Source: Aedoeadaptatus urinae (GTDB taxonomy: Bacteria > Bacillota > Clostridia > Tissierellales > Peptoniphilaceae). Taken from it: DNA of 64,000 nucleotides. Below, in pieces: positions 1 to 50,436 of this stretch. Location: positions 62,001 to 126,000 of the forward strand of contig NZ_LT707417.1 in the NCBI RefSeq assembly GCF_900155585.1. Direction: 5' to 3'. The position numbers and the translations under genes were made by a program. The notes below the pieces were generated by a model. It was given only the letters and a program-made list of their open reading frames with translations. It was not told where the DNA came from and did not search any database. How positions within the stretch are numbered: position 1 is the first letter of the stretch; each line of letters starts with the position of its first letter.

Positions 1-653
1 AAGTTCAGCGACTGATTCAAGACATGGGCCTTCAAGTCCGCGCCTATGGCAGAAAGTACAAGAAGTACAACTCGTACAAAGGCGTCGTCGGGAAAATCAA
101 GAAAAATCGAATCAACCGCCGATTCAACACCTGTATCCCCTACCAAAAAATTACTACCGACACCACGGAATTCAAATACTACATCGAAGATCAAACTGGG
201 AAACTTCAAACAAAGAAACTCTACCTCGATCCGTACATGGACATGTACAATCTGGAAATCATCAGCTACGTCCTCTCCGACCAACCCAACGGCGTCACCA
301 TGCTACGAGGCTTAGAAGAAGCCATCGAGCGAACCAACGGCTGTCCCTACCGGCGCACCTTCCACTCCGATCGCGGTTGGGGATACCAAATGACCGCCTA
401 TCAAGCCATGCTGAAAAAACATCACATCTTCCAAAGCATGTCCAGAAAAGGCAACTGCTACGACAACGCACCCATGGAAAACTTCTTCAGTGTGCTGAAA
501 AGAGAAATCTACGACGGCTACGTCTACCGAAGCCGGCAAGAACTTGTGCGGGCCATCGAACACTTTATACGCTACTACAACAACGATCGAATCAAAGAAA
601 AGTTAGGAGGCATGAGTCCGAAGCAATACCGTGAACGAATGAACGCAGCATAG
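1..653 (+). CDS. IS3-family transposase OrfB, 5'-truncated by the window edge
   Basis: This is the integrase/transposase that catalyses cut-and-paste or circle-mediated movement of an IS3-family insertion sequence. The reading frame is open from the first bases of the window, so the N-terminus lies outside. Counting from the first in-window ATG at 24, the catalytic residues are D46 (TTDTTEF), D116 (FHSDRGWG) and E152 (NAPMENFFSVLK). The 35 residues between the last two give the DD(35)E spacing of the family. The end of the frame carries the usual IS3 segment (YYNNDRIKEKLGGMSP). A terminal inverted repeat follows within 80 bp, so the right half of the element is intact. In the complete element OrfB would be made as an OrfAB fusion by programmed frameshifting; that site is not visible here. 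Confidence 0.93.
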   Translation, partial: VQRLIQDMGLQVRAYGRKYKKYNSYKGVVGKIKKNRINRRFNTCIPYQKITTDTTEFKYYIEDQTGKLQTKKLYLDPYMDMYNLEIISYVLSDQPNGVTMLRGLEEAIERTNGCPYRRTFHSDRGWGYQMTAYQAMLKKHHIFQSMSRKGNCYDNAPMENFFSVLKREIYDGYVYRSRQELVRAIEHFIRYYNNDRIKEKLGGMSPKQYRERMNAA

Positions 654-45641: not shown

Positions 45642-47741
45642 TTAGTTGATTTTTTGGAAGATGGAGATGGAGCGGTCGGAATCTTCGTAGTAGACTTCCA
45701 TGCCCATTTTTTCCACGATGAAGCGCAGGGGCACCATGGTGCGATTGTTTTGGATGGTGGCGCCCACGTCCAGGGGGACGGTGTTGCCGTCGATGACGGC
45801 CAGGTTTTTGTCCGCGGGCAGGGCGATGGTGTGGCCCTTGTATTGAACCACGGCGGTGCGTTCGGGGGCGTTCCAGCCCACCTCGGCGCCGTAGGATTCC
45901 ATTAAGAAGCGCAGGGGCACGAGGGTGCGGTTGTTTTTAATCACCGGTGTCGTGTCCATGGTGCGGGCCTGTCCCGCGGCGGTAAAGTTTTTCTTGCCCA
46001 CGGTCATGAGCACCTTCGCATAGCCCGGGGATTCCTTTACATAGCTTGCGCTGTTGCCGCCGAATCTCGCCTTGTAGGCGATATAGGCGCCGTTCACTTT
46101 TTGTTGGGTGAAGACGGCGGTAGGCTCTTTCACACCGCCCGCTTTCCAGCTATTGGTGTCGCCCTTTGCCGCACCGTTTTCCACGGTCCAATTGATTTGA
46201 GCGGGGTCGATGGCGATGCTTCTGCCCGCCTTGGTCACGCCCTTCGGCGCCAGGGTAACGGTATTGCCGCCCTCTTTGGCCGTCAGGGTAAAGCTCTTAA
46301 GGGCGGCGGGGCTTTGGATGTCTACGGGCAGGGTGACGGTGAGGCCTGTTTTCGTGGTCAAGAGGATGTTGGTCTTGCCTTGCTTCGGCGAAAGGAAGCG
46401 GCTGTAGAGCCAGGCGTTTTTGCCGAAGGTGCTGTCCGTCAGGCTGTAGCCGATGTCGTTTACCTTCATGGGGTGGTAGTTGCTGTCCCAAGCCTTGGCC
46501 AGATTGTAGGTGGCCACTTCGCCTAAGACCAGGTGGCGAGGCCCGCCGATGGAGCCGCCGGCGAGAGCGGTCCTGGGGGCCTTGTTCATGACGCCGATGC
46601 CGTTGACGATGCGCCGCTCGGAGCCGTTTCGTTCCGGCCGGGTGATTTTCGTGTTTTTAAAATCTCCGTGGCCCCGAGCCACCAAGGTGGTGGAGCCACC
46701 GCCGTCTAAGTTAATGGCTTTTTCCACGCCTAAGGCGGCGACGGTGGCCGCCCATTCGTTCAGCTTCATGCCGCGGCTTCTGGAGGTGCGGCCTTCTGTG
46801 GCGACGAGGTAGACGGTCTTGCGGTCTCTGGAAATGGCCGCGGCGCTCCTGGCCCGGTAGCCGTCGATGGAGGCGGCGTCCATAATATAGGGCTGTGCCA
46901 GGCCGCCGTTAACCAAGAGGGCGTGGCCGCCGATTAAAAAGCGCCAGTTTCTGTTGGGGCTCACATTGTAATTCAGGCGCAGCCGTTGGCCCACTCTGAC
47001 GTTTTGGCGAATAAAGTCTTTCGCCCGGCCGTTGACCTGCAAAATATACTTGCCTTTTGGGGTGACCATGGGCAGGGGACGGTCCAGGGAAATTCTTTCC
47101 ACGACGAAGTTGCCGTTCACCAGCACTTCGCCGCTGCCCCTGAGTCCCCGGGAGACGGAGGTCCAAAAGTCGTTGTACAATTGGATGCTGTCTTTGTGAG
47201 AGGGGACTTGGGTGTGGTTAATAATGTAGTCGGTTTTGTTTAAGCCGCTGATCCTGTAGTGCGCGCCGTTTTGTGCGGTGGCGGTACCGTTAAAGGTAAA
47301 GTTTTCGATGTAGGCGTTTTTGTTGTTGTCGATGCCGAAGGCGTACAGGCCGATGGATTCCAAAGGCGAGGACTGAAGCTTGCCGCCGATGACGGAAGGG
47401 CCGAAGGGCGCGCCCTGTTTCGACATATTAAAGAAGTCGCCGTTAATGCCGGCGTAGGCGTCGGTGCGATCGGCCATGTGGCTCACCGTGTCTTTGCGGG
47501 TGTAGCTCCCCGCTCCGGCCATGACCTGAAGATCCGCCGCGGGATTGTTCAGATCCACCTGAATCACGTCGACCTTGTGGTTTCTGCCGCCGATGGTTGC
47601 GGAAAGCTCCCTGCGAATGACGCCGGGGGAGACGGTAATCCGTCCGTTTTCTTTTAAAGAGACGGCCTCGGCACCCTTGGGCAGAAGAAGCACCAGGGCC
47701 AAGACCCATAAAAATACGACTTGCCTTTTTAATAGATTCAA
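45642..47741 (-). CDS. secreted phosphodiester glycosidase (NAGPA) protein with copper-amine-oxidase-N-like domain
   Basis: This 699-residue exported protein has a signal peptide (VVFLWVLALVLLLPKGAEA). A NAGPA domain occupies about residues 60-395, with the signatures AGINGDFFN, AAISRDRKTVYLVATEGRTSRSRG and KAINLDGGGSTTLVARG. A middle Ig-like region follows. The C-terminal ~120 residues are a copper-amine-oxidase-N-like domain with two copies of the NNRT(L/M)VPLRF motif. NAGPA proteins cleave phosphodiester-linked GlcNAc and related bonds in wall or spore polymers. TTG 47741 is preferred because AGAGGTG lies six bases upstream; GTG 47750 is the alternative. Confidence 0.87.
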   Translation of the reverse strand: MNLLKRQVVFLWVLALVLLLPKGAEAVSLKENGRITVSPGVIRRELSATIGGRNHKVDVIQVDLNNPAADLQVMAGAGSYTRKDTVSHMADRTDAYAGINGDFFNMSKQGAPFGPSVIGGKLQSSPLESIGLYAFGIDNNKNAYIENFTFNGTATAQNGAHYRISGLNKTDYIINHTQVPSHKDSIQLYNDFWTSVSRGLRGSGEVLVNGNFVVERISLDRPLPMVTPKGKYILQVNGRAKDFIRQNVRVGQRLRLNYNVSPNRNWRFLIGGHALLVNGGLAQPYIMDAASIDGYRARSAAAISRDRKTVYLVATEGRTSRSRGMKLNEWAATVAALGVEKAINLDGGGSTTLVARGHGDFKNTKITRPERNGSERRIVNGIGVMNKAPRTALAGGSIGGPRHLVLGEVATYNLAKAWDSNYHPMKVNDIGYSLTDSTFGKNAWLYSRFLSPKQGKTNILLTTKTGLTVTLPVDIQSPAALKSFTLTAKEGGNTVTLAPKGVTKAGRSIAIDPAQINWTVENGAAKGDTNSWKAGGVKEPTAVFTQQKVNGAYIAYKARFGGNSASYVKESPGYAKVLMTVGKKNFTAAGQARTMDTTPVIKNNRTLVPLRFLMESYGAEVGWNAPERTAVVQYKGHTIALPADKNLAVIDGNTVPLDVGATIQNNRTMVPLRFIVEKMGMEVYYEDSDRSISIFQKIN

Positions 47742-47804
47742 ATCAAACACCTCTTTCTACTTTCATTGTACTGGAAAAGGAATGCCTCTTGCGTGTTATT
47801 CCCG

Positions 47805-48359
47805 TTACAAATCCCGGGGGAGTTTGCGGCCGTCGATCTTTCTGAAAAAGTCGTTGTCCGCCGCCTCCAGTGCCGGAAGATCGTAGCCCATGCGCTGCAT
47901 TTCGTTGAGCTTAAAGATCATCAGGTTCACGTCCACGGAAAAAGCCCGGGCCATGTCCATATAGGAGTAGCCCGCCCGCGCCATGGCATAGACCGCCTCC
48001 TCGTCCAAGAGGAAGTGGGCGGAGAAGATATTCGCCTCAAGCTCCATGGCGTCGGTTAAGTGAAAGAGGGTGTATTCGATGAGTTCTTTCTTCTCGGCGT
48101 GGTTGCGGTGGTAGAGATGGTGGCCCAGCTCGTGGGCCAGGACCATGCGCTGAATCGGCGCCGGCATGCGGTCGTTGTAAAAGACGAAGGGCTTGTTCAA
48201 AATAATTTTGTACATGCCCAAAAGCTTCGTGGATGCGGCCATGGGAATCAGGTCCACCTTCATGGCCTCCAGGGCCTTTTTCGGATCGCCGTCGTAGCGC
48301 TCACGGAGGCAGGCGGCGTCGTCGTAGAGGTGGCGGTGGCGGCTAGTCGTCTTGTTCAT
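47805..48359 (-). CDS. ImmA/IrrE family zinc metallopeptidase
   Basis: This 184-residue cytoplasmic protease has the HExxH motif HELGH at residues 76-80 and the downstream third ligand in MELEANIFSAHFLL (about E108). ImmA/IrrE proteases cleave a partner XRE repressor to trigger gene expression, as in ICEBs1 (ImmA-ImmR) and Deinococcus (IrrE-DdrO). The xre gene overlaps it upstream by about 17 bp, giving the classic pair. ATG 48359 is chosen; the longer frame to 48428 lies within xre. The C-terminal helical region is typical of the family. Confidence 0.88.
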   Translation of the reverse strand: MNKTTSRHRHLYDDAACLRERYDGDPKKALEAMKVDLIPMAASTKLLGMYKIILNKPFVFYNDRMPAPIQRMVLAHELGHHLYHRNHAEKKELIEYTLFHLTDAMELEANIFSAHFLLDEEAVYAMARAGYSYMDMARAFSVDVNLMIFKLNEMQRMGYDLPALEAADNDFFRKIDGRKLPRDL

Positions 48360-48756
48360 GGGATCCGCCCGCCTTCTTTGATTCACTTTCCAGTTTCGCC
48401 CGGAAGTAGGCTTCCTGAATGGCCTCAAACACCGCCTGCTTGTCCTCCTCGTCTAATTTGCCGCCGGCGAAGAGGCCGATGACTCCGTCCACCAGCTCCC
48501 GGGCATCGGCGGCGCCACGCGTGCCCCAGCGGGCCTGAGCCGCCATAATAAAGGCGTCTTCCTCCGTAAAGAAATAGGCCTTGGGCACGTGAAAGAGCTC
48601 GGCCAGGGCGTCGTAGGTGGCGTCGTGGCGGGGACGCAGGCCGCCGGTTTCGTAATTGGATATGGTGCGCAGCGACAGGTCCAGCGCCTCGGCCAAATCT
48701 TTCTGTGTCATGCCCCGGTCTTTCCTGAGGGCTTTTATTTTTTCTCCGAATGTCAT
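48343..48756 (-). CDS. XRE-family transcriptional regulator
   Basis: This 137-residue repressor has an N-terminal Cro/CI helix-turn-helix (FGEKIKALRKDRGMTQKDLAEALDLSLRTISNYETGGLRPRHDATYDALAELFHV). The C-terminal acidic helical region (DGVIGLFAGGKLDEEDKQAVFEAIQEAYF) resembles the segment that ImmA-type proteases cleave. It overlaps the immA gene and is divergent from dinB. Three related dyads in the shared promoter region look like its operators. It probably represses both itself and dinB. Confidence 0.9.
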   Translation of the reverse strand: MTFGEKIKALRKDRGMTQKDLAEALDLSLRTISNYETGGLRPRHDATYDALAELFHVPKAYFFTEEDAFIMAAQARWGTRGAADARELVDGVIGLFAGGKLDEEDKQAVFEAIQEAYFRAKLESESKKAGGSHEQDD

Positions 48757-48768
48757 GATTCACCTCGA

Positions 48769-48859
48769 TATGCAATTTAATTGCGTATAAAAAAGAAAAG
48801 CATCTTGAAAAGCGCAAGTTGATTTCGTATTATGGAAGCAAATAGGAAATCGAGTTGCG
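48769..48859. promoter_or_regulatory. three operator-like dyads between xre-immA and dinB
   Basis: Site 1 (48771-48785) is TGCAATTTAATTGCG, a near-perfect dyad just downstream of a possible xre -10 box. Site 2 (48813-48827) is CGCAAGTTGATTTCG, matching site 1 at 11 of 15 positions. Site 3 (48845-48859), GGAAATCGAGTTGCG, matches the reverse orientation at 9 of 15. Site 2 exactly fills the spacer of the dinB promoter. No LexA/SOS box is seen. Confidence 0.6.
48805..48833 (+). promoter_or_regulatory. dinB promoter
   Basis: TTGAAA (48805-48810), a 17-bp spacer, and TATTAT (48828-48833). The spacer coincides with operator-like site 2, so a bound repressor would block RNA polymerase. Confidence 0.65.
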
Positions 48860-48903
48860 TAAATCATAGAATGAATTGCGCCTTTTGTCAAGAAAGGATC
48901 GCC

Positions 48904-50142
48904 ATGAAACGGGTTATTTTACATTCGGACATGAACAATTGCTACGCCTCCATCGAAATTCAGCGCAACCCCTCCCTTCGAGGGAAGGCCCTGGTGGTGG
49001 GAGGCTCCGTGGAAGACCGCCACGGCATCGTCCTGGCCAAGTCCATGGAGGCCAAGGCCATGGGCATTCAAACCGGCGAGGCCTTGTGGCAGGCGAGAAA
49101 TAAATGCCCGAACCTTATCGTGGTGGAGCCCCACTACGAGGTGTATCTGGATTTTTCCAGAAGGGCCCGGGCCATTTACTACGACTACACCAATCAGGTG
49201 GAGCCCTTCGGCCTGGACGAGTGCTGGCTCGATGTGACGGGAAGCACGCACCTCTTCGGCTCCGGCGAGGCCATGGCCCACGCCATTCGCCGGCGCATGA
49301 AAGAGGAGCTGGGCATTACGGTGTCCATCGGCGTGAGCTTTACAAAGACTTTCGCGAAGTTGGGAAGCGATATGAAAAAGCCCGACGCCGTCACAGTCAT
49401 CGCCGAGGAGGACGTGGCGAGGAAAGTCTACCCCCTTCCCGCCGACGCCATGATCGGCATCGGACGAAAGACGAGGGAAAAGCTGCGGGCCGTGGGGATC
49501 GATACCTTGGGAGATCTGGCCGCGGCCGATGTGGCCCTTTTAAAAAGCCGCCTGGGCATCAACGGGGTGAAGCTTTGGAAAAAGGCCCGGGGCATGGAGG
49601 AGGATCCCGTGCGGGACCGAGACGATCTGCTTCCCGTCAAGAGCGTGGGCAACGGCATAACCCTGCGGGAGGATTTAAAAAATCCCGTGGAGGTGCGGCG
49701 GATTTTTCAGATCCTCGCCATAAAAGTGGCGAAGCGGCTCAGGGAAGGGGAGCTCATGGCCCGGGGGATCGAAATCCATTTGCGGGATAAGGATTTAAGA
49801 GGCGCCTCCTTTCAGTGCAAGCTGCCCTACGACGGGGCCTCCTCTTTTCTTTTAAGGGATTCGGCCTTCGATTTGTATTTAAAAAAGATGGATCCCGCCC
49901 GTCCCCTTCGGGCCGTCACCCTTCGCGCCACGGATCTCGTGCCGCAAAAGGCGGCGGTGCAATTGGATTTATTTTCCGATTACGAAAAAAAGAAGCGGGA
50001 AGATGCCTTGGACGAGGCCATATATAAGATTCGCCGGCGCTACGGCGAGGGCGCCCTCACTTTTTTAGGCCTCTTAAACGACACGAAAATGCCCCTTCAC
50101 ACCACCGATGTCGTCACCCTTCCCCATCCCGTCTTGCGATAG
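48904..50142 (+). CDS. dinB: Y-family DNA polymerase IV (DinB/UmuC)
   Basis: This 412-residue translesion polymerase bypasses damaged bases. Catalytic carboxylates are D9 (LHSDMNNCYASIE) and D105-E106 (PFGLDECWLDVTGS). The thumb HhH region (IGIGRKTREKLRAVGIDTLGDLA) and a C-terminal little-finger domain are complete. The C-terminus ends QLDLFSDYEKKKRE followed by a tail. The N-terminal MNNCYAS replaces the more common DCFFAS, as in many Firmicutes Y-family members. The ATG at 48904 follows AGAAAGGATC; the upstream frame from 48832 is weaker. It is divergent from xre-immA. Confidence 0.93.
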   Translation: MKRVILHSDMNNCYASIEIQRNPSLRGKALVVGGSVEDRHGIVLAKSMEAKAMGIQTGEALWQARNKCPNLIVVEPHYEVYLDFSRRARAIYYDYTNQVEPFGLDECWLDVTGSTHLFGSGEAMAHAIRRRMKEELGITVSIGVSFTKTFAKLGSDMKKPDAVTVIAEEDVARKVYPLPADAMIGIGRKTREKLRAVGIDTLGDLAAADVALLKSRLGINGVKLWKKARGMEEDPVRDRDDLLPVKSVGNGITLREDLKNPVEVRRIFQILAIKVAKRLREGELMARGIEIHLRDKDLRGASFQCKLPYDGASSFLLRDSAFDLYLKKMDPARPLRAVTLRATDLVPQKAAVQLDLFSDYEKKKREDALDEAIYKIRRRYGEGALTFLGLLNDTKMPLHTTDVVTLPHPVLR

Positions 50143-50175
50143 GCGTTATTTTAGCGTACAAAAGGGATAAATAGA

Positions 50176-50204
50176 TTGAATGGAACATGGAGATTGGATA
50201 AAAT
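50176..50204 (+). promoter_or_regulatory. promoter of the atp operon
   Basis: TTGAAT (50176-50181), a 17-bp spacer, and TAAAAT (50199-50204), 30 bp before the first gene. Confidence 0.7.
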
Positions 50205-50235
50205 AGAAGAGTAGACAGAAGGGGAGGTGATGTCC

Positions 50236-50436
50236 GTGAAAAAATCGCCTTACACCGGCTTGGCGCTCATTACCCAAGTGGGACTCAATGTACTGATTCC
50301 TATTTTGGGATGCATGCTCCTCGGTGCGTGGCTGGATAAAAAGACGGGCGGAAGCGGTTTGTTTCTTCTGCTTCTTACCCTTTTGGGCATCGCCGCCGGC
50401 GTTATGAACATTCTTCGCTTGGGAAAGAAGCTATGA
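50236..50436 (+). CDS. AtpZ/AtpI-like small membrane protein
   Basis: This 66-residue protein has two hydrophobic helices and belongs to the AtpZ family (putative F0F1-ATPase assembly or Ca2+/Mg2+ transport subunit) that often leads Na+-type atp operons. The family core is GLNVLIPILGCMLLGAWLDKKTGGSGLFLLLLTLLGIAAG. GTG 50236 is eight bases after GGGGAGG; the alternatives GTG 50227 and ATG 50230 overlap that RBS. It overlaps the next gene by ATGA. Confidence 0.78.
   Translation: MKKSPYTGLALITQVGLNVLIPILGCMLLGAWLDKKTGGSGLFLLLLTLLGIAAGVMNILRLGKKL

Follow-up and report, generated by a model that had tools for sequence, protein, structure and literature searches.

Discussions of induced mutagenesis in bacteria usually treat it as an output of the LexA/RecA system. 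Another kind of switch, in which the gene of an XRE-family repressor is accompanied by that of an M78-family protease, is known from the ImmR-ImmA pairs of ICEBs1 and TnSmu1, and the cleavage site of ICEBs1 ImmR lies next to Phe95. As far as the available text of the sources goes, both pairs reside on mobile elements, the excision or transfer of which they control; TnSmu1, which carries a related ImmR-ImmA pair, is induced by mitomycin C (PMC10233336), and COG2856/XRE pairs are often found on conjugative transposons and phages (review PMC8072749). In Deinococcus, the XRE repressor DdrO and the M78 protease IrrE/PprI are linked to DNA repair. The accessible part of one study divides PprI into a peptidase (residues 19-135), an HTH (136-176) and a GAF domain (177-277), and states that GAF-truncated PprI neither binds ssDNA nor is stimulated by it (PMC10904395), and in the sections of the review at hand the Deinococcus mutagenesis cassette is placed under RecA/LexA (PMC8072749). 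CapH-CapP likewise consists of a small XRE repressor and a protease and, according to the source excerpt, controls a defence operon (CBASS), the CapP chain being larger (291 aa) than the protease described below. Lastly, DdiA of Myxococcus xanthus is an XRE regulator at an error-prone polymerase gene that works independently of LexA; the available text reports it as activating dnaE2 and names no protease partner (PMC12288472).

Here we describe a locus of Aedoeadaptatus urinae which is, in our judgement, likely to represent a dedicated derepression circuit with a single target, in which an Xre-ImmA pair controls the polymerase gene dinB. Pairs of the ImmR/ImmA type are already known; among the open-licence PMC papers listed by our searches, none was recognised as describing such a pair in control of a translesion polymerase. 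Within the window, by which we mean the whole stretch of 64,000 nucleotides that was analysed, the following genes make up the locus:

48343-48756, minus strand: xre, Cro/cI-type repressor of 137 aa with an HTH (about residues 1-63) and a long helical hairpin; Pfam HTH_3
47805-48359, minus strand: immA, M78/ImmA-type metalloprotease of 184 aa with the motif HELGH; Peptidase_M78 at 6.5e-18; ATG start
48904-50142, plus strand: dinB, Y-family DNA polymerase of 412 aa; IMS at 4e-42, and IMS_C

An earlier note on this DNA had described overlapping XRE and ImmA/IrrE genes divergent from dinB, and both the ORF coordinates and the Pfam families agree with it. The two genes of the pair overlap by 17 bp (an alternative open TTG start for immA exists at 48428), the control region between them and the divergent dinB measures 147 bp, and the dinB product contains the IMS and IMS_C domains that define Y-family polymerases. 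The host genome of 1.82 Mb (genus Aedoeadaptatus, Peptoniphilaceae) encodes a second, shorter Y-family polymerase at G000:C2:240292. ATP synthase subunit genes lie downstream and a phosphodiester glycosidase gene adjoins immA; one or both of these also flank the locus in six other Aedoeadaptatus species that have xre-immA with the polymerase. The nearest genes scanned code for a hydrolase, an unknown protein, an SLH/CAP protein, the glycosidase and ATP synthase subunits, and there was no recombinase match among the seven neighbouring window ORFs scanned or in the glycosidase beside immA. As such, whereas the ICEBs1 and TnSmu1 pairs are carried by mobile elements, the nearest genes scanned here point to a stable chromosomal locus with a polymerase as its apparent output; a mobile location is usual for ICE and phage members of the ImmR/ImmA type and is not a biochemical trait. 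The glycosidase ORF (45642-47750, on the xre-immA strand and directly downstream of immA) combines a NAGPA-type phosphodiester glycosidase with a Cu_amine_oxidN1 domain. An Rfam scan of 47700-50300 gave nothing above the gathering score.

At the protein level, the pair corresponds to the ImmR/ImmA type, in which an XRE HTH gene is followed by an overlapping or adjacent gene for an M78 protease with the HExxH zinc motif and a further conserved Glu: H76, E77, H80 and E106 of ImmA are invariant in 57 sequences. The ImmA model (mean pLDDT 89) comprises the peptidase and a short helical part, with Peptidase_M78 as the single Pfam match. Foldseek ranked PprI first (2.0e-4). With a second structure aligner, the top rank went to CapP (Z 15.8, rmsd 2.8 over 144 residues), followed by IrrE (Z 11.9, rmsd 3.7 over 154 residues), so that the predicted fold appears to resemble both PprI/IrrE and CapP. 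A GAF-like C-terminal domain as found in IrrE/PprI is absent, and the 184 aa leave no room for it. Since PprI needs this domain for ssDNA sensing, the analogy to Deinococcus IrrE-DdrO put forward earlier is weaker than stated; the Deinococcus system moreover has a regulon, as opposed to the one target seen here. For Xre, the model (mean pLDDT 86.3, pTM 0.60) consists of the HTH and a long helical hairpin (helices 65-96 and 103-133), with a GG loop (G98-G99) that is invariant in 68 sequences. Sequence-profile searches matched the phage phi106 repressor (9sf2), ICEBs1 ImmR (7t8i) and DdrO (6jq1). The HTH resembles that of ICEBs1 ImmR (7t8i; 4.4e-10, Z 10.6 in structure alignment) and the N-terminal domain of CapH (Z 11.3), whereby the structure matches cover mainly the HTH (residues 1-67) and barely the hairpin.

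The control region between the divergent genes contains two promoters and several operator-like sites:

48805-48833, plus strand: dinB promoter, TTGAAA-17-TATTAT, 10/12 in the promoter scan
48891-48863, minus strand: xre promoter, TTGACA-17-TATGAT, 11/12 in the promoter scan, facing the dinB promoter
48771-48785, no strand: operator-like site O1, near-perfect dyad TGCAATTTAATTGCG, in the xre leader
48813-48827, no strand: operator-like site O2, CGCAAGTTGATTTCG, within the 17-bp spacer of the dinB promoter
48845-48859, no strand: operator-like site O3, GGAAATCGAGTTGCG, between the two -10 boxes
48868-48882, no strand: half-site-like O4 (ATTGCGC), overlapping the edge of the xre -10 box and the spacer, read from the sequence

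The scan returned these two promoters as compared to a mean of 0.5 in shuffles, and their -10 boxes are 29 bp apart. In the earlier note the dyad had been assigned to the xre promoter. This placement was rejected, as the scan found no promoter-like site at O1 and, for xre, detected a single one, at 48891-48863, from which O1 is located about 80 bp downstream; the drawn layout has to be corrected as well, since the two promoters face each other and that of xre lies on the polymerase side. The description of a second site, 11/15 identical to the dyad (counted by eye), in the same orientation and filling the dinB spacer, proved right, and the third copy downstream also exists but is not weaker, as O3 matches the core of the dinB spacer at 12 of 15 positions, which only 23 out of 2000 dinucleotide shuffles achieved.

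Taken by itself, the O1 dyad is unremarkable (a 6/6-pair palindrome of its size occurred in 139 of 2000 region shuffles), and O2 is a degenerate dyad in A. urinae (4/6 pairs, p 0.41 against shuffled spacers). A search with O1 at three mismatches produced no matches beyond chance, and O1 alone would hence have missed O2 and O3. Across seven aligned species, the whole -35 box and five of the six -10 positions of the xre promoter, four of the six -10 positions of the dinB promoter and, in 7/7 regions, the ATTGCG half-site of O4 are invariant. As judged from the sequences, the significance of these candidate operators is found in their repetition, position and conservation, not in dyad symmetry alone. 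The evidence against chance alone is moderate in the A. urinae genome and strong across its relatives.

Among Clostridia, 51 divergent loci with 44 distinct intergenic sequences were collected. Both promoters reached at least 10/12 in 39 of the 44 regions, as compared to 0.6% of 1320 shuffles, and they faced each other in all 39, with a distance of 19-48 bp (median 27) between the -10 boxes. When the spacer core was searched for a second copy in its own region, the mean match was 11.8/15 versus 9.2 in shuffles, with individual significance (p ≤0.05, 100 shuffles each) in 32 of the 44 regions. Against the regions of other operator groups, which had been assigned by hand, the same cores reached a mean of only 8.9/15, and the match in the own region exceeded the mean of the others in 44/44 cases. 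Since copies within a region beat both shuffles and other groups, the operator word varies between genera and is consistent within a region. The dyad test of the spacer alone is weak (at least five pairs in 20/44; mean 4.5 versus 3.5). The search for the dyad in orthologous loci, which had been proposed along with the first reading, thus met with operator-like sites that are conserved within the polymerase promoters across genera in a genus-specific sequence.

In a partial Mantel test, operator similarity follows residues 28-38 of Xre when the rest of the protein is controlled for (r 0.31, p 0.0005, 2000 permutations), a test that corrects for overall Xre similarity and only partly for shared descent. 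Windows within residues 1-67 gave partial r values of 0.07 to 0.34, with 0.31-0.33 for the recognition helix, and window 57-67 correlates just as well (0.34), as opposed to -0.14 to 0.00 for windows at residues 65-107 and 0.12 for window 105-115; the signal thus marks the DNA-binding domain and not one helix. By reading, a recognition helix with SxKTISRYE is accompanied by AAGAC...GTC where the genus is Anaerococcus and by GGAC...GTC where it is Tissierella, RTYKGYELGER by GTGCAA (L018, L025), RTISNYETGG by CGCAA or TGCAA, and RTVxSYExGxSYP mostly by GAAG...TTC; L017, L021, L024, L037 and L155 break this pattern. Repressors of the ImmR/ImmA type bind repeated operators at their own and at the target promoter, and the repeated sites and their covariation with the DNA-binding domain would fit such binding by Xre.

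The site also appears to be confined to the xre-dinB locus. In the A. urinae genome the site pattern occurs at ten places, three of them in the control region; since the pattern was derived from the sites themselves, the count in the window is circular and only the clustering counts. Six of the seven other occurrences are inside ORFs, and the remaining one (L175) falls where two co-directional genes meet, on the upstream side of one. Across eight Anaerococcus genomes, a strict operator pattern was found 23 times per strand, eight of these at the xre-dinB locus in seven genomes, and the 15 matches elsewhere (coordinates read by eye) are no excess over the 14 for a reversed control pattern. A wider Xre regulon was therefore rejected under strict patterns, under which there is likewise nothing that would correspond to the repair-gene regulon with a common motif of IrrE/PprI-DdrO.

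The linkage itself, which the earlier note had proposed to search for in related genomes, recurs. Among 57 ImmA matches in 101 genomes, 25 have a Y-family polymerase match no more than 3 kb away (tables read), and xre-immA adjoins the polymerase in 19 of the 25 genomes whose polymerase shares 42% or more identity with this one. In five genomes with such a polymerase (G040, G054, G021, G052 and G027), the 1.5 kb flank searched contains no xre, and in G023 an xre gene (L203:2525-2869) is divergent from the polymerase with no ImmA match nearby. By eye, GTGCAA sites were noticed in G040 and one 12-mer common to G021 and G052, where the genes are unlinked, and no matching operator was seen in G027; the spacer in G023 resembles both the Xre dyad and a LexA box. 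Within the genus Aedoeadaptatus, six of seven other genomes have xre-immA beside the polymerase; the exception, G004, lacks an ImmA match, and its only polymerase is of the shorter type. In a genome collection, some loci of which are also part of the 101-genome set, a Y-family polymerase lies within 3 kb at 48 of 80 ImmA loci and an xre match was found at 75, the 80 being the best of at least 217 confirmed relatives and hence biased toward close ones. Of these 48, again within the best 80, 32 polymerases are divergent and 16 co-directional downstream, the latter matched by a longer UvrX-like query. Several genomes (Selenomonas, some Anaerococcus, Ezakiella) carry xre-immA with no such polymerase beside it.

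With respect to LexA, no GAAC-N4-GTTC core is found in the dinB control region, which agrees with the earlier remark that no LexA box is visible and sets dinB apart from LexA/SOS regulon genes, in which this core is located at the promoter. The exact core is likewise found in 0/44 Xre regions, and with up to one mismatch in 1/44 (L062, an xre-only locus) versus 1.5 expected in shuffles. LexA is nevertheless encoded in the A. urinae genome, and a LexA-like box (GAACAACTGTTC, L007:1480-1520) is present in the gap that separates lexA from a divergent ORF of 118 aa, where it falls within a promoter-like stretch, TTGACA-17-TAAAAT; a LexA circuit seems to coexist with that of Xre in this organism. 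Of the 19 genomes with linked genes, 16 have a LexA family match above the cut-off and one, G088, has a match below it; in two Anaerococcus genomes, G059 and G030, none was found. Thirty polymerase upstream regions with no linked xre contain the LexA core exactly in 19 cases, with one mismatch (a level found in about 5% of shuffled upstream regions) in five and in neither form in six, namely L048, L054, L055 and L058, which are of the Xre type and unlinked, and the second copies L197 and L198. Thirteen polymerase genes that are more distant, from genomes in which xre-immA is unlinked, include two with the exact core and 11 with none; LexA control is thus not general outside the group either.

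In a polymerase tree of 68 rows (38 Xre-linked, 24 with a LexA box, five with neither or xre only, one outgroup), 23 of the 24 LexA-box polymerases, which had been chosen as carriers of the core within one mismatch, form a separate clade on a long branch (100/100). L049 was dropped because of an in-frame stop, and the deep order is unsure, as 15 of 65 forks are open and branches are long. The LexA-controlled PolY of Clostridia is therefore comparable to the polymerase described here in being a related Y-family enzyme with an operator at its promoter, yet it differs in its repressor and, in 23/24 cases, belongs to its own clade. This placement led us to reject a general swap of the LexA box for an Xre operator in one orthologous gene. 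Such a swap is suggested once and is probable for L053 (genome G054), the lone LexA-box member outside the clade, which groups among Xre-type polymerases; the safe statement is that the polymerases fall into two groups with apparently different repressors.

From our point of view, the most likely mechanism is that Xre represses dinB as well as itself and that ImmA inactivates Xre under stress, whereby we infer the binding, the cleavage and DNA damage as the trigger. A dimer of Xre would bind to the repeated operators of the shared control region. At O2 it would occupy the spacer of the dinB promoter and block RNA polymerase, at O3/O4 it would cover the facing xre promoter and thereby repress its own synthesis, and O1 could strengthen repression at both promoters. 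Because the -10 boxes are close (29 bp) and facing, RNA polymerases on the two promoters would also exclude one another. A stress signal would then activate ImmA, which would be translated from the same mRNA as Xre, and ImmA would cleave Xre at a specific site, as is typical of ImmR/ImmA-type pairs. The candidate region is the helical hairpin at the C-terminus of Xre, probably close to its invariant GG loop, where the cut is placed by analogy because the cleavage region of DdrO is, in the source text at hand, a loop of its C-terminal domain. Once Xre is cleaved, dinB would be transcribed and translesion synthesis would proceed outside LexA control, until fresh Xre restores repression.

Repression by Xre at the predicted operators is the reading that explains their position, their repetition, the covariation and the absence of LexA boxes. 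Relief of this repression by ImmA would follow from what is known about the protease family, and DNA damage as the trigger is plausible given the polymerase output and, by analogy, the mitomycin induction of TnSmu1. The LexA-independent dinB switch that had been proposed at the outset gains from the linkage, the operator-like sites in the promoter, the lack of exact LexA boxes and the covariation with Xre, with binding by Xre, its cleavage and the damage trigger standing outside this support.

It is possible, though we are doubtful, that the same repression circuit induces dinB in response to a signal other than DNA damage, with ImmA answering to zinc, to the redox state, to a peptide or to a protein partner. 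An ImmA of 184 aa with no added sensor domain would fit such a signal, as PprI, according to the text available, needs its GAF domain for activation by ssDNA, and the accessible sections of the review describe IrrE-like proteins as generally devoid of a GAF-like domain and speculate about activation by zinc (PMC8072749). Pneumococcal prophages regulated by ImmAR, as far as the excerpt of that work goes, answer several signals, and some were excised more when recA was disrupted (PMC12637031). The output speaks for damage, however, as it is a translesion polymerase, and so does the mitomycin C induction that the available text reports for TnSmu1 with its related pair (PMC10233336). Even if Xre binds as predicted, its effect could be the opposite one, since XRE regulators can activate and DdiA, in the part of the source at hand, directly or indirectly activates dnaE2 (PMC12288472); the site in the promoter spacer and the consensus promoters (12/12) of many relatives, however, point to repression, which renders activation of dinB by Xre quite improbable.

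That xre-immA is a self-regulating mobile-element or toxin-antitoxin-like module with dinB as a passenger is unlikely as well, given the operator-like sites within the polymerase promoter across genera, the polymerase linkage that recurs in two different arrangements, and the Aedoeadaptatus locus, which retains its chromosomal neighbours with no recombinase in the seven window ORFs and the glycosidase scanned. What favours this idea is that xre-immA exists without the polymerase and that like pairs in the same divergent layout have a serine recombinase as their neighbour in L142 (Ruminiclostridium), L161 (Anaerotignum) and L165 (a Clostridiaceae MAG). Control of dinB by LexA through a degenerate box that was missed, which the presence of the protein in the genome and the box at lexA might suggest, is the most improbable of these possibilities in the light of the 0/44 regions with an exact core, the 1/44 with up to one mismatch versus 1.5 in shuffles, and the two Anaerococcus genomes (G059, G030) that have the circuit and in which LexA was not found.

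One could further speculate, at somewhat less than even chances, that many Clostridia have a second, LexA-independent damage response with mutagenic translesion synthesis as its sole output, for which a pair of the phage/ICE type was recruited to the chromosome and coupled to a dedicated polymerase subfamily, that this response replaces the SOS control of mutagenesis in LexA-less Anaerococcus, and that ImmA senses damage without a GAF domain. If true, a blockade of the SOS response need not stop damage-induced mutation in such anaerobes, several of which are from the human microbiota. The compactness of the system, with three genes and one 147-bp control region, would also make it suitable for testing the trigger of an ImmA-type protease directly.

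Several variants of the locus were observed besides. In a second arrangement, the gene of a UvrX-like Y-family polymerase, about 480 aa long, comes after xre-immA in the same direction (L095 from Lagierella, L097 from Helcococcus, L163 from Parvimonas micra and L167 from Eubacterium yurii; also L204-L207), and AGTC-type words are repeated ahead of xre in both L095 and L097. At L200:1473-3864 (G009), an Xre-type control region precedes a tandem of two related Y-family polymerase genes. The polymerase matches of L049 and L065 (Anaerococcus G059 and G030) contain an in-frame TAA, and it is possible that the output gene is decaying there while xre-immA stays, or that these are sequencing errors. 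In L142, L161, L165 and L166, xre-immA is divergent from a protein of about 190 aa, for which no Pfam family above the cut-off was found in L166, and a serine recombinase (assigned by Pfam in L142, L161 and L165 and by eye in L166) is part of the locus, so these are probably mobile elements that use the same switch. In L126:3761-5026 and L141:4071-5273, a WYL-domain protein (Pfam) is encoded upstream of xre-immA on the opposite strand, at the side usually taken by the polymerase.
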